From contig OX345646.1 in NCBI GenBank assembly GCA_947044365.1, positions 3,294,827 through 3,358,826 on the forward strand: DNA of 64,000 bases. Reading direction: 5' to 3'. Shown here in pieces: positions 10,347-19,146 of the stretch. The translations under genes were made by a program, and so were the position numbers. Positions within the stretch are counted from its first letter, which is position 1. Each line of letters starts with the position of its first letter. The DNA comes from Petrosia ficiformis (lineage: Eukaryota; Porifera; Demospongiae; Haplosclerida; Petrosiidae). The notes under the pieces are model-generated. The model was not told the DNA's origin, searched no databases, and saw only the letters and a list, made by a program, of their open reading frames with translations.

Positions 10347-13300
10347 TATATATATCATGTTTCAGAGGTCTATATGCGTTATATAAACCTGCCACGAGGT
10401 AAGATATCACCCGAGGGCGTAGCCCGAGGGTGATATCATCCGAGTTGGCAGGTTTATATAACGCATATAGACAGATGAAACATGTTATATCTGATATATT
10501 TTAGAATGAGATTCATACCTTGGATTGTCCTGCAAGAGATTGTCATTGAGTCCGTAAGAAATCGCCATCGAGTTTCACAAGGTTGATATTTTAAAATATC
10601 AACCTATTTTGAGGTTTATATGAGAAATATAAACTTACACGCCCCATAGAAATGTATGGGCTATGAATCTCATTATGAGATATATATATATATATATATA
10701 TATATGTAGCAACCCTGAAATGTATATATTGTTCTAGAAATCAGGGTTCTACACACTGTATATCAGAATCAGGGTTGTGTATTATTCATATACATGTGTA
10801 TTAATATGTAGCAACCCTGATCCTGATGTGTATTAATATGTAGCAACCCTGATCCTGATGTGTATTAATATGTAGCAACCCTGATCCTGATGTACAACCC
10901 TGATATATATATATATATATATGTAGCAACCCTGATCCTGATGTACAACCCTGATTCTGATATACAGTGTGTAGAACCCTGATTTCTAGAACAATATATA
11001 CATTTGTATATACTATGGATACAGTGTTGTATCCACAAACTACAGAGAATATGTAATCAGTCATTCCATAATATATGTGTCTACAAGTAATAAAAGTATT
11101 TAAAAATATTTCATGTGACACTTGAGATTGTACTAACTATTGTATCAATTCCTGTGTTCATCTACATGTATGTATTCAGTATGTATGTGATGATGTGAAT
11201 AACTAAACAGAACTGACCTGCTTCAATAAATACTTCTATCATTTCTGGTGTCTTTGCAGACTGACGAGAAGTAATACCGTACTATAGTAAGAATAGTTAA
11301 TTATGTAATTATACAGTTTATAATCATGATAATAATTATCCGGGATAGTGTGGGGTTGGCTACTCCATTGTTGCCTACTCTAATTTAACTTCAGTAGTGC
11401 GTGTTTGCCTATGTATACCATAATTCTAATTATACAAAATATTTCAATTTTATTATGGTTATCCTTACAGAGGCGTAGTCACTTTTATGATATTCAATAC
11501 TATACACTGTAACTACACTAATTACTTATGAACTAGAAAACAGTCAAAGTATGGAAGTCAATAAATAGACATGCAGGTTTGAATTAGTTAATGAATTTTG
11601 TTCATCATACCTCACAAAGTACACGTAACAAATTAATGATGTAAATTTAGTGTTCCCTGATATTGTATAGACATTTTGTAAATGTAGTTCACTTAATGCT
11701 TAGCACTTGCTCATATACAACTGTACATCCTGAGTATATCAATTGTATAAAATTTGCAGGGGCGGATGCAGGGCCAGTGAAAATGAGGTACAAAAACGTG
11801 TGCTCATTAATTTTTGTGACAGGTGTGGCTAACCAATATGTGTACACATACTTATGTACATGTACTGGTATTGCACATTTACTTACATGTAGACATAAAA
11901 ATGAGATTCATGACTATTAAGTCTACATTTTAAATATTCATCAGAAATAACAATCATTATAGCACCAAATATTTTAAAGGGCCATGTATTAAGTATAATA
12001 ATTCGTTATGTGAATACTTTTGTTACATTATGGGATATCCTCTGAGACATACATGTACAACAACTTCAGTTAGAATACATGTAAGCAAAAATATCCTTGA
12101 GCTTGTATTGTTATAATTATACTAATCCTCTAACACATATATTATAATGCTCAACCACAGAACACTATATGATGATGCTGTTGTCATGTGTCTAGTGTAT
12201 AAAGGATATGTTGTTCAAGTGAACATGACAATGTAGATATAATTATACATATCAAACCATACTGTGAAATAAATATGATTCACAGTATATACCTGAAGAT
12301 TCAATGAGTTGTACAAAGACAATAGATATTTACATTATTATACACATTTGTAGTTTGTTTGATATGAAACAAATCATTACCTCATCAGATATACTTGTCT
12401 TTGCACCAGCCATTATCAGCAGACGAACCACTTCAACATTATTTTGAAATACTGCGTTATGAAGAGGTGTATCTCCATCCTGATATAGAAAGACAAAATG
12501 AATAGTCATAATAACTACAATTGTACATAATGATTATAACATAAAACTTTGTGACCTTAACTATAATTAGTTAATTATAACTTTGGGTACAATTTCCACA
12601 TGTATATGAAATCTTGGTTGATATTACATATAATTTGTATATTCATTTATAGTATTCATGTATTATTATATTAGTTGAGAATTAATTAATGGATTATCAC
12701 TATTAGAAGACAACAAATAAATTAATAAACCAAACTTAACAAGTGTTATTATAACTATTAGAAGATTTAATTAACTAACTTAATTGAAGCTGAGGAAGAG
12801 CATTATTTTGAAATGATGGTGAGGATTTATAGAGTGTGTAAATTAGAAAAAATCAAGAAATGGTAGAAATTATAGTCTAGGTACATGTATTATGAAACAT
12901 CAGAATGTTTCTTATGAAGGTAAATACTATGTGGACATATGTATATCAACCCATTAGATATCACATAGTAGATTTGTACACATGTATGTACATTATAAGA
13001 ATTAGTGATCACTGACAAATTACAAGCAGTTAGATGGCTACCTTTCTCATCACACCAGAAGTCACCTGACAATTTTATTGTACATACCTGTACATGATAA
13101 CAGTATGTTGCCATAGCAACTAGTCTGTGAGTACTAGTTTTGTTTCATTATGGGATAACATATGAGACATAATTATATGTACATAACAGTTAGTGACAAA
13201 ATTACTTTGCTTTGGATTGATATATGGTAATCTAGTACTGTACTCTATCTAACATTCATATAATACTCAACTACAGAACATTATAAACTGTGTGTCTACT

Positions 13301-14044
13301 GTACAAAGGATAATTATGTTGTTCAAATGAACATGACAATGTAGATAATGACTGTATTTATACATATGAAGCCATACTGTGAACTAAATGTGGTTCACAA
13401 TATATACATGATGATTCAATGAACCGTTAACTGTTCATTAACATTGTTTGCTTAATGTAAAAAAAAATTAATCATTACCTTGTCAAGAGAGTCTAAGTTA
13501 GCATTAGCATCAATTAATATACGAGCCACCTGAACTATATTGTAAAATGCAGCAAAATGAAGAGGAGTCCATCTAGACTGATATTGAAAGTCAAATAAAT
13601 AGTACAGTAAAAAACCAATGTGATACAAAATGTTTGTGATATTATAATTATAATAGTTAGTTAAACATAACTCTGCATACATGTTACACATGAATAGGAT
13701 ATCTTACTTGATATTTCATATAGTTGACTTAATTGTAGTATTAGTTGAGGAGTACTGAATTATCACTATTATATTAAATTAATCAACCAACTTAATAGTT
13801 TGAAATAATGGTGAGGGTTTATAGTTTATAAACGTTATACTATCATGTCATCACAAATGTGGACATTCTCTGAGATTAGTATGAAATTTGCCTTAATACG
13901 ATCATCTTTGACTATCACCTTTTCTCAGATATTTGGCAAGTGGATGGCTGAGGATGTGACTAGGAGATATGTCCTATATTACCTACATGTAAGTCTAGTT
14001 ACACACTCGCTCTTGACAGATATACCGTGTATATATATATAATA

Positions 14045-14076
<32 letters not shown>

Positions 14077-16841: not shown

Positions 16842-16873
<32 letters not shown>

Positions 16874-19146
16874 ATTATATTAAATGCCAAGGAAAGCAAT
16901 TGTAGAGATGGACCTGTGGGTTATAAAACTTCCTAGTGAAATGATATATTATGTAATCATCCATACAATAAGGTACAACTCATCTCATAACAAAACCATA
17001 CATATATATTATGTAGCATATGACTCGAAGGTAAAAACAACCCTTCATGATTTTGTCATGTGATATTTTGTCAAGTCAAGTACATTTAAACACTATTCAG
17101 TCATTTTGTACAGGAAAGTATGTGAATACTTTTGTTACATTATGGGATATCCTCTGAGACATACATGTACAACACACTTCAGTTAAAATACATGTTAGCA
17201 AAAATATCCTTGAGCTTGTATTGTTATAATTATACTAATCCTCTAACACATATATTATAATGCTCAACCACAGAACACTATATGATGATACCGTTGTCAT
17301 GTGTCTAGTGTATAAAGGATATGTTGTTCAAGTGAACATGACAATGTAGATATAATTATACATATCAAACCATACTGTGAAATAAATATGATTCACAGTA
17401 TATACGGGAAGATTCAATGAGTTGTACAAAGACAATAGATATTTACATTATTATACACATTTGTAGTTTGTTTAATATGAAACAAATCATTACCATATGA
17501 GGTATATTTATCTGTGCACCGGCATTGATTAGCACTTGAGCCACTTCAACATTATTGTTACGTACAGCTCTATGAAGAGGTGTTTCTCCATCCTGATATA
17601 GAAAGACAAAATAAATAGTCATAATAATTACAATAGTACTGAATGATTATAACATAAAACTTTGTGATCTTAACTATAATTAGTTAATTATAACTTTGGG
17701 TACAATTTCCACATGTATATGAAATCTTGGTTGATATTACATATAATTTGTATATTCATTTATAGTATTCATGTATTATTATATTAGTTGAGAATTAATT
17801 AATGGATTATCACTATTAGAAGACAACAAATAAATTAATAAACCAAACTTAACAAGTGTTATTATAACTATTAGAAGAATTAATTAACTAACTTAATTGA
17901 AGCTGAGGAAGAGCATTATCTTGAAATGATGGTGAGGATTTATAGTGTGTAAATTAGAAAAAATCAAGAAACGTAGAAATTATAGTAGTCTAGGTACATG
18001 TATTATGAAACATCAGAATGTTTCTTATGAAGGTAAATACTATGTGGACATATGTATATCAACTCATTAGATATCACATAGTAGATTTGTACACATGTAT
18101 GTACATTATAAGAATTAGTGATCACTGACAAATTACAAGCAGTTAGATGGCTGCCTTTCTCATCACACCAGAGGTCACCTGACAGTTTTATTGTACATAC
18201 ATGATAACAGTATGTTACCATAGCAACTAGTCTGTGAGTACTAGTTTTGTTTCATTATGGGATAACATATGAGACATAATTATATGTACATAACAGTTAG
18301 TGACAAAATTACTTTGCTTTGGATTGATATATGGTAATCTAGGACTGTACTCTATCTAACATTCATATAATACTCAACTACAGAACATTATAAACTGTGT
18401 GTCTACTGTACAAAGGATAATTATGTTGTTCAAATGAACATGACAATGTAGATAATGACTGTATTTATACATATGAAGCCATACTGTGAACTAAATGTGG
18501 TTCACAATATATACATGATGATTCAATGAACCGTTAACTGTTCATTATCTTTGTTGAATGTAAAAAAAATTAATCATTACCTTGTCAAGAGAGTCTAAGT
18601 TAGCATTAGCATCAATTAATATACGAGCCGCCTGAACATTATTGAATATTACAGCAATATGAAGAGGAGTCCATTCTGTCTAATATTGAAAGACAAATAA
18701 ATAGTACAGTAAAAAACCAATGTGATACAAAATGTTTGTGATATTATAATTATAATAGTTAGTTAAACATAACTCTGCATACATGTTACACATGAATAGG
18801 ATATCTTACTTGATATTTCATATAGTTGACTTAATTGTAGTATTAGTTGAGGAGTACTGAATTATCACTATTATATTAAATTAATCAACCAACTTAATAG
18901 TTTGAAATAATGGTGAGGGTTTATAGTTTATAAACGTTATACTATCATGTCATCACAAATGTGGACATTCTCTGAGATTAGTATGAAATTTGCCTTAATA
19001 CGATCATCTTTGACTATCACCTTTTCTCAGATATTTGGCAAGTGGACGGCTGAGGATGTGACTAGGAGATATGTCCTATATTACCTACATGTAAGTCTAG
19101 TTACACACTCGCTCTTGACAGATATACCGTGTATATATATATAATA

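Follow-up and report, generated by a model that had tools for sequence, protein, structure and literature searches.

Diversifying ankyrin-repeat exons among closely similar introns in a tandem Roc-COR gene family of the sponge Petrosia ficiformis

A stretch of 64,000 nucleotides from the sponge Petrosia ficiformis (contig OX345646.1 of assembly GCA_947044365.1, positions 3,294,827–3,358,826; hereafter the window) was analysed. It very probably lies on chromosome 11 and carries two genes, A and B, that belong to an array in which about 18 genes follow one another head to tail over 0.64 Mb of that chromosome. Its members appear to have an N-terminal capping ankyrin (ANK) exon, ANK repeats, a Roc-COR GTPase and a CARD-like domain, in an order that recurs along the array. 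Diversifying selection acts strongly on the ANK exons, chiefly at codons of the turn and inner helix, and these exons differ far more than the introns beside them. A second array, on another chromosome, shows the same excess of exon over intron divergence. The pattern is one of concerted evolution together with diversifying selection, and not of point mutation alone. We think it probable that genes A and B represent a tandem family of ANK-ROCO-CARD-like sensors whose binding face diversifies while their introns evolve in concert. A preliminary description made from the sequence of the window had pointed to the contrast between exons and introns in gene A, and had rightly supposed a sponge-like host.

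In gene A, two repeat exons of one type (S; 18581–18679 and 13479–13577) differed at 12 of 99 bases, all in codons 1, 2, 8, 10, 11, 12, 14 and 17. The amino acid was changed in all eight differing codons, and codons 18–33 were the same. Differences in the two flanking introns were few, 3 in 420 bases and 7 in 409 (exon versus intron, Fisher P = 3e-7). This recount agrees with the preliminary description, in which about 3 differences in 410 bases of intron had been claimed. Two exons of a second type (D; 17494–17592 and 12381–12479) differed at 24 of 99 bases, of which approximately 19.5 were non-synonymous and 4.5 synonymous by the Nei–Gojobori method. These figures were also as described earlier. 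The estimate of about 2% for the flanking introns was too low, the differences found being 15/418 (3.6%) and 31/418 (7.4%); the exon excess was nevertheless clear (Fisher P = 2e-8).

The excess held across the larger sets of S and D exons. For these statistics near-identical duplicates were removed (2 of 17 core S exons and 4 of 26 D exons), as were the diverged S-type (S') exons and two D exons, located at 3.26 and 3.28 Mb. The 15 S exons had a median divergence of 0.101, as compared with 0.011 in both the upstream and the downstream 90 bp of intron, the exon being the more divergent in 104 and 90 of 105 pairs, respectively. The 22 D exons had a median divergence of 0.212, as compared with 0.023 upstream and 0.080 downstream, and exceeded these flanks in 209 and 172 of 231 pairs. 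With 300-bp flanks, the exon was more divergent than the upstream and downstream intron in 105 and 90 of the 105 S pairs and in 154 and 188 of the 231 D pairs. The contrast was weaker when means over 150-bp flanks were used (S, 0.106 versus 0.041, 91/105 pairs; D, 0.202 versus 0.140, 162/231 pairs), because a neighbouring exon or unrelated DNA falls within the flanks of several copies.

Profiles of diversity along aligned units gave the same picture. In 16 S copies, the successive exon thirds differed by 15, 9 and 5.5%, as compared with 0–3% in the first 300 bp upstream. The thirds of 22 D copies differed by 21, 22 and 16.5%, as compared with 0.3–2.5% within the same distance; the downstream side of the D profile was blurred by tandem D exons and misalignment. 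Two exon types of the chromosome 6 array, C6a and C6b, behaved similarly. The thirds of C6a exons (nine copies) differed by 20, 12 and 10%, as against 0–3.4% within 231 bp upstream, and those of C6b exons (10 copies) by 14, 10 and 9%, as against 0.6–5.3% within 165 bp on either side. For the two types together, the closest 165 bp on both sides differed by 0–5%. The N-terminal capping exon was variable too, at inner-helix residues, with a rate of non-synonymous change (dN) of 0.18 and of synonymous change (dS) of 0.03 between genes A and B. A collar of low diversity surrounds the S, D, capping and C6a exons. It extends for approximately 200–300 bp upstream (for S the downstream collar is longer), and outside it diversity rises sharply; a limit to conversion tracts, insertion breakpoints, misalignment or constraint may account for it.

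Selection was assessed with likelihood code for site models M0, M1a and M2a, written for this analysis and run on a fixed IQ-TREE tree, codons with a posterior above 0.9 being scored as selected. Model M2a was favoured over M1a in all four exon types: S (dN/dS ratio omega 12.7, P = 1.8e-9; codons 1, 3, 11, 12, 14 and 33), D (omega 7.0, P = 1.1e-16; codons 1, 3, 8, 11 and 12), C6a (omega 6.8, P = 0.0046; codons 1, 3 and 32; one of the nine exons, identical to another, was removed) and C6b (omega 24.9, P = 3e-9; codons 3, 7, 11, 12 and 33). Over all pairs, codon differences numbered 758 replacement and 45 silent among S exons, and 2642 and 740 among D exons. Twelve codons with a constant amino acid showed no silent change at all among the 15 S copies. 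The proportion of non-synonymous differences (pN) exceeded that of synonymous differences (pS) in 99/105 S pairs (mean 0.121 versus 0.053) and in 142/231 D pairs (mean 0.206 versus 0.187). Equal divergence of exons and introns, or a dN/dS near or below 1 at the codons listed in that description, had been named at the outset as incompatible with diversifying selection; both were looked for, and the reading survived.

Most of the selected codons mapped to the presumed binding surface. The positions randomised in designed ankyrin binders (DARPins) are 33, 1, 3, 11, 12 and 31 in the exon numbering used here. Fifteen of the 19 selected codons fall on these positions, the exceptions being 7, 8, 14 and 32. 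Mean amino-acid heterozygosity was 0.56–0.67 at the six DARPin positions, as compared with 0.14–0.27 elsewhere, in all four exon types (P = 0.0007–0.007), and per-codon variability was correlated in all six comparisons between exon types (Spearman 0.40–0.61). In the text available on designed ankyrin binders, the paratope is made of the randomised positions (PMC8683736). Positive selection at concave residues is shared with brown-algal ROCO genes, the concave placement being taken from the DARPin positions and from the account of fungal repeats (PMC4986451).

The Roc-COR exon served as a control. Of 14 copies (two in the window and 12 fetched), 12 were used and two with a stop codon were excluded. 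None of the 66 pairs had pN above pS (mean 0.046 versus 0.115). The dN/dS of the Roc-COR open reading frame (ORF) was 0.34 between genes A and B, and omega was 0.40 for the full exon and 0.37 after removal of the 18 ANK-proximal codons (M2a P = 0.12), indicating that this exon is mainly under purifying selection. The first Roc-COR codons, near window positions 9230–9290 (minus strand) and beside the ANK part, bore a sign of positive selection; they are perhaps the end of the ANK domain.

A point missed in the preliminary description is that the introns did not behave as plain neutral clocks; they look homogenised across loci. In ten genes the mean difference was 6.0% for Roc-COR DNA, 1.3% for S introns and 9.9% for S exons, and S-intron distances were unrelated to Roc-COR distances (r = -0.07). 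The nearest introns were more alike than the silent sites of the Roc-COR exon in the same genes (0.115). Genes A and B have a Roc-COR dS of 0.32, yet the longer aligned blocks of their ANK halves are 88–97% identical. The D exons were themselves mosaic. Four gametes were found in 65 of 153 site pairs, linkage disequilibrium dropped with distance inside the 99 bp (P = 0.0004), and identical 5' blocks were paired with different 3' blocks (one 5' block with two 3' blocks). These signs suggest that gene conversion or recombination probably reshuffles exon blocks. Exchange between loci, as in concertedly evolving fungal receptors of the WD/ANK-NLR type, is evident here indirectly, from the D-exon mosaics and the alike introns. 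Point mutation as the whole story was rejected in view of the blockwise silent differences and the intra-exon recombination of the D exons.

A protein search with a query ORF covering both intron and S exon found 12 relatives. For seven of these, comparison by eye showed a match to exons of this assembly, and on their contig three of five Roc-COR ORFs compared were 100% identical to those of the assembly. Three others lie on another contig; their intron-derived parts had 0–1 differences in 35–38 residues, and their exons were separated by 3, 4 and 6 residues from the closest counterpart among the 51 S- and D-type exons recognised in the chromosome 11 array. That contig holds nine Roc-COR ORFs with a best identity of 78–97% to 14 copies (chromosome 6 copies left out). 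It may be an alternate haplotype or come from another animal, and hints at haplotype differences in the ANK exons.

Several observations weigh against the reading of diversifying exons among concerted introns, or restrict it. Introns farther out differ by 4–15% in places, and C6b flanks by at least 9% beyond approximately 230 bp. D introns showed no significant correlation with Roc-COR distances (r = 0.17, P = 0.21), and D upstream introns differed by a mean of 5.4% in 12 genes because of one array-edge copy, 28% off, without which the mean was 0.8%. Overall pN/pS in D exons was just 1.10, and pS in S exons (0.053, Nei–Gojobori) was above the intron values, though this average includes multi-hit codons. 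S exons had four gametes in 27/55 site pairs and no decay of linkage disequilibrium (P = 0.54), so that recurrent mutation accounts for them equally well. Whether the distances of S exons and Roc-COR were correlated varied with the copies taken: they were in some sets (r = 0.56, P = 0.003; without one duplicate, r = 0.55, P = 0.003; without gene A, r = 0.55, P = 0.012), and not significantly so in two others (r = 0.18 and 0.15; P = 0.25 and 0.22). Among D exons the corresponding Mantel test gave r = 0.09 (P = 0.14). The idea that the exon tree follows the gene tree was dropped. The uncut Roc-COR control was significant under M2a (P = 1.3e-5; codons 2, 3, 9, 354 and 370), and site-model tests can be inflated by recombination; the exon–intron contrast is independent of any tree. 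The C-terminal ORF had a dN/dS of 0.82 between genes A and B and hence is not strongly constrained, and its assignment to the CARDs is by fold, with no match at Foldseek E ≤ 0.001 or in Pfam and Protein Data Bank (PDB) sequence searches. Finally, the gene models stand on splice borders, frame and order.

The same contrast could arise if exons exchanged blocks, or were replaced whole, from a pool of diverged donors under equal mutation input, so that the differences would be old. D exons combine exact shared blocks differently and lose linkage disequilibrium within 99 bp, and their silent divergence (0.187) is above that of Roc-COR (0.115). S exons, on the other hand, have few silent differences and no such decay, and swapping alone cannot place differences at binding-face codons, for which selection is needed. 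As a complete account a donor pool is possible but rather unlikely; for D exons, exchange of this kind is taken into the preferred explanation. Alternatively, introns might be held fixed by a splicing or regulatory function while exons change at an ordinary neutral or relaxed rate. The intron of low diversity does adjoin the exons, for approximately 300 bp upstream and 460 bp downstream of S, with diversity climbing beyond, and the S and D flanks remain alignable at about 66–71%. Neutral exons would not, however, have silent sites as quiet as those of S, nor an omega well above 1, and the Roc-COR silent divergence of 0.115, set beside S-intron distances that do not follow Roc-COR, argues against fixed introns also. 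Intron constraint is weakened by the quiet silent sites of S, and we hold it to be improbable, although the immediate collar may still be constrained.

Diversity with sharp exon borders, and multi-base changes at few codons, would also be produced by a mutator aimed at ANK exons, such as germline or somatic hypermutation or retro-homing. Codons 4–6 (TPL) and others are nearly constant within the same variable exons, indicating that selection and not a mutation window sets the pattern, and D codon 12 varies at all three positions, which does not indicate a single template base. Such a mutator is very improbable. An assembly artefact or haplotypic duplication is less credible still. It is true that two units separated by about 432 kb share 99.8% identity along 6.4 kb, and that a further pair reaches 99.3% along 4.3 kb. 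However, the surplus differences are concentrated in exons, which is not expected of sequencing error, the pattern is repeated on chromosome 6, and near-identical copies were excluded from the pair counts; the available assembly report gives a HiFi and Hi-C assembly with a consensus quality (QV) of 62.8 and 0.8% duplicated BUSCOs (PMC12648040).

Domain assignments for the Roc-COR and C-terminal parts rest largely on predicted folds. The Roc-COR protein of the window scored under the Pfam cut-offs (Roc, 17.5 versus 27; COR-A, 17.0 versus 35.3), and at E ≤ 0.01 Roc and COR-A were found in 27 and 19 of 36 aligned relatives. The structural model used had a mean pLDDT of 68.9 (43–49 for the other four of five models), and the first 18 Foldseek rows were all Roco (Roco2) or LRRK (LRRK1/2) proteins, with a best E of 6.7e-9. 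The C-terminal ORF has an AlphaFold core with pLDDT above 90, and its PDB fold matches were mostly CARDs. Searches of PDB sequences with both ORFs gave nothing significant; the C-terminal domain is called CARD-like rather than CARD because sequence matches in Pfam and PDB are lacking. The P-loop domain matches Roc-COR and not the NACHT or NB-ARC of NLR and STAND proteins. Neither NACHT nor LRR was seen in 10 ORFs scanned with Pfam; the repeats present are ANK repeats. No kinase domain was seen in these ANK-ROCO genes.

Genes A and B are putative receptors, and the likeliest role would be that of an intracellular sensor in microbial recognition or allorecognition, given a diversifying ANK face joined to a Roc-COR switch and a CARD-like domain. 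Recurrent gene conversion, together with unequal crossing-over, would shift DNA between genes and homogenise introns, while selection would refuse homogenisation of the exons and favour new residues or block combinations on the concave ANK face. This face would bind variable ligands, for instance proteins of microbes or markers carried by other sponges; the Roc-COR GTPase would be switched by the binding, and the CARD-like domain would recruit a death-fold or caspase partner. The whole would work in an NLR-like manner, built from ANK, ROCO and CARD. A bolder proposal, which we consider doubtful, is an exon-cassette recognition system in an animal, in which the homogenised introns serve as homology arms while the ANK exons are binding cassettes open to exchange. 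Haplotypes would then hold nearly wholly different repertoires for allorecognition or for distinguishing symbionts from other microbes, possibly with change within an individual. In two sponges given microbial signals, ankyrin-repeat and CARD genes, not necessarily of the present family, are reported among those up-regulated (PMC6208332).

Copies of the S and D units were sought by DNA searches of the genome (191.2 Mb, 29 contigs). A search with the S unit gave at least 40 matches, of which at least 27 lie at 3.26–3.92 Mb of chromosome 11 (minus strand) and at least 10 at 5.55–6.36 Mb of chromosome 6, where a second, related array is found. The D unit gave at least 45 matches, with at least 30 and at least 14 in the same two intervals. 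These counts are lower bounds, since the best 40 candidates were scored; among the matches listed, the remainder lay on C1, with one elsewhere on chromosome 11. Splice borders and frame indicate that each ANK repeat is a single phase-0 exon of 99 nucleotides (some 102, one 105), so that one repeat per exon is kept at constant length and phase, as in brown-algal shuffling ROCO genes. The S exons at 18581–18679 and 13479–13577 scored 30.3 and 32.0 bits with Pfam Ank (PF00023; cut-off 21.1). Similarity together with splice borders served to recognise the 51 exons, and stop codons were found in none of them. This set leaves aside one D exon, near 3.914 Mb, that has a 21-nucleotide in-frame deletion. 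The number of ANK exons differs among genes. With N for the capping exon, N-S-D is common, and N-S-D-D, N-S-D-D-D and longer forms occur. The features of genes A and B are listed in the table.

Table. Features of genes A and B, by position in the window
Feature	Position	Strand	Remarks
Gene A N-terminal capping ankyrin exon, 84 nt	20977–21060	-	18 copies in chromosome 11 cluster; alignment
Gene A exon 3, S-type ankyrin repeat, 99 nt, phase 0	18581–18679	-	open frame, AG/GT borders; Pfam Ank E 1.3e-7
Gene A exon 4, D-type ankyrin repeat	17494–17592	-	
Gene A exon 5, diverged S-type (S') ankyrin repeat	14866–14964	-	
Gene A exon 6, S-type ankyrin repeat	13479–13577	-	Pfam Ank match
Gene A exon 7, D-type ankyrin repeat	12381–12479	-	
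Gene A Roc-COR GTPase ORF	7572–9308	-	probable splice acceptor near 9289
Gene A ORF between Roc-COR and C-terminal ORF	7015–7497	-	no Pfam match
Gene A C-terminal ORF	5721–6272	-	residues 35–138 (~5859–6170) a CARD-like six-helix bundle in predicted fold
Gene B N-terminal capping ankyrin exon	59467–59550	-	
Gene B S-type ankyrin exon	56375–56473	-	
Gene B D-type ankyrin exon	55282–55380	-	
Gene B second D-type exon, 102 nt	55076–55177	-	tandem exon duplication, ~104-nt intron before
Gene B decayed S-like exon	54403–54450	-	3' half alone recognisable (codons 18–33)
Gene B third D-type ankyrin exon	53392–53490	-	
Gene B Roc-COR GTPase ORF	49073–50896	-	
Gene B ORF between Roc-COR and C-terminal ORF	48361–48840	-	
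Gene B C-terminal CARD-like ORF	47099–47557	-	

Other features of the locus were noted. Part of gene B (51818–58174) has a copy about 432 kb off, at 3778690–3785046 of chromosome 11, that is 99.8% identical (13 mismatches in 6.36 kb). An inverted repeat at 21373–21965, with 126-nucleotide arms that are 94% complementary, adjoins the capping exon of gene A. Between genes A and B lies an element with a DDE_3 transposase-domain ORF (43806–44333, minus strand; E 1.3e-15). An ORF at 39968–40828 (minus strand) has DUF3504 (E 9.9e-26) and QRICH1 domains, and may encode a recombinase of a mobile element. Intergenic DNA at 38718–39159 and 41475–41713 holds a repeat family with 137-nucleotide copies spaced mostly by 51 bp. 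Many further ankyrin matches were found on C7, C10 and C13 in long open frames, several of 1,000–3,000 residues, and form a separate ankyrin expansion.

Sponges have allorecognition and manage dense microbial communities, and how their receptors gain specificity is largely an open question. As one exon is one ANK repeat with codons marked by selection, the genes name the residues likely to touch a ligand. If the function holds, variable recognition would be tied to a Roc-COR switch and CARD-like signalling in an early-branching animal. Concerted introns around diversifying exons also provide a clean natural case for gauging the strength of gene conversion and of selection relative to one another.

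Kin in kind are known from brown algae, fungi and venom genes. None of the papers listed by the literature searches described an animal gene family that joins ANK exons, ROCO and a CARD-like domain with islands of exon diversity between concerted introns. Among the animal ROCO proteins, which include LRRK1/2, DAPK1 likewise unites ANK, Roc-COR and a death domain in one protein; it differs in its kinase domain, whereas in the sponge family the ANK face is hypervariable among tandem genes. The NLRs of a sponge likewise form a large repertoire of candidate immune receptors, but the terms 'ankyrin' and 'COR domain' are absent from the available text of that paper (PMC12909245), and NACHT and LRR were unseen in the ORFs scanned here. 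The three-finger toxin genes of viperid snakes (ASSET; Doley et al., 2008; PMC2474615) resemble the sponge genes, in the text accessible, in having alike introns and differing exon segments, with switching invoked. Their products are secreted and of another fold, and segments are replaced by distinct ones rather than varied at fixed binding codons. In fungal NLRs with highly conserved ANK, TPR or WD repeats (Dyrka et al., 2014; PMC4986451), the available text describes concerted repeats, few diversifying positions and variable repeat number, as here, the selected sites of the ANK group lying, with one exception, in inner helices and the concave-face hairpin. These proteins have NACHT or NB-ARC and C-terminal repeats, in contrast to the Roc-COR and N-terminal repeats of the sponge genes, and that work, unlike ours, compared repeats within alleles; an arrangement of single-repeat exons set among near-identical introns is not described in the available text. 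Closest are the brown-algal LRR-ROCO genes (Teng et al., 2024; PMC11378527), which, as far as the accessible text goes, have one repeat per exon of fixed length and phase N-terminal to Roc-COR, exon shuffling, positively selected concave sites and a proposed role as immune receptors. The algal repeat is an LRR of 72 bp in phase 2, as compared with an ANK of 99 bp in phase 0 in the animal, and LRR-ROC-COR is said to be the sole domain structure in the alga, and so without CARD; the accessible text contains no comparison of exon with intron divergence. If the function holds, animals would have, in the sponge family, an equivalent of these shuffling LRR-ROCO genes that was reached through a different repeat.

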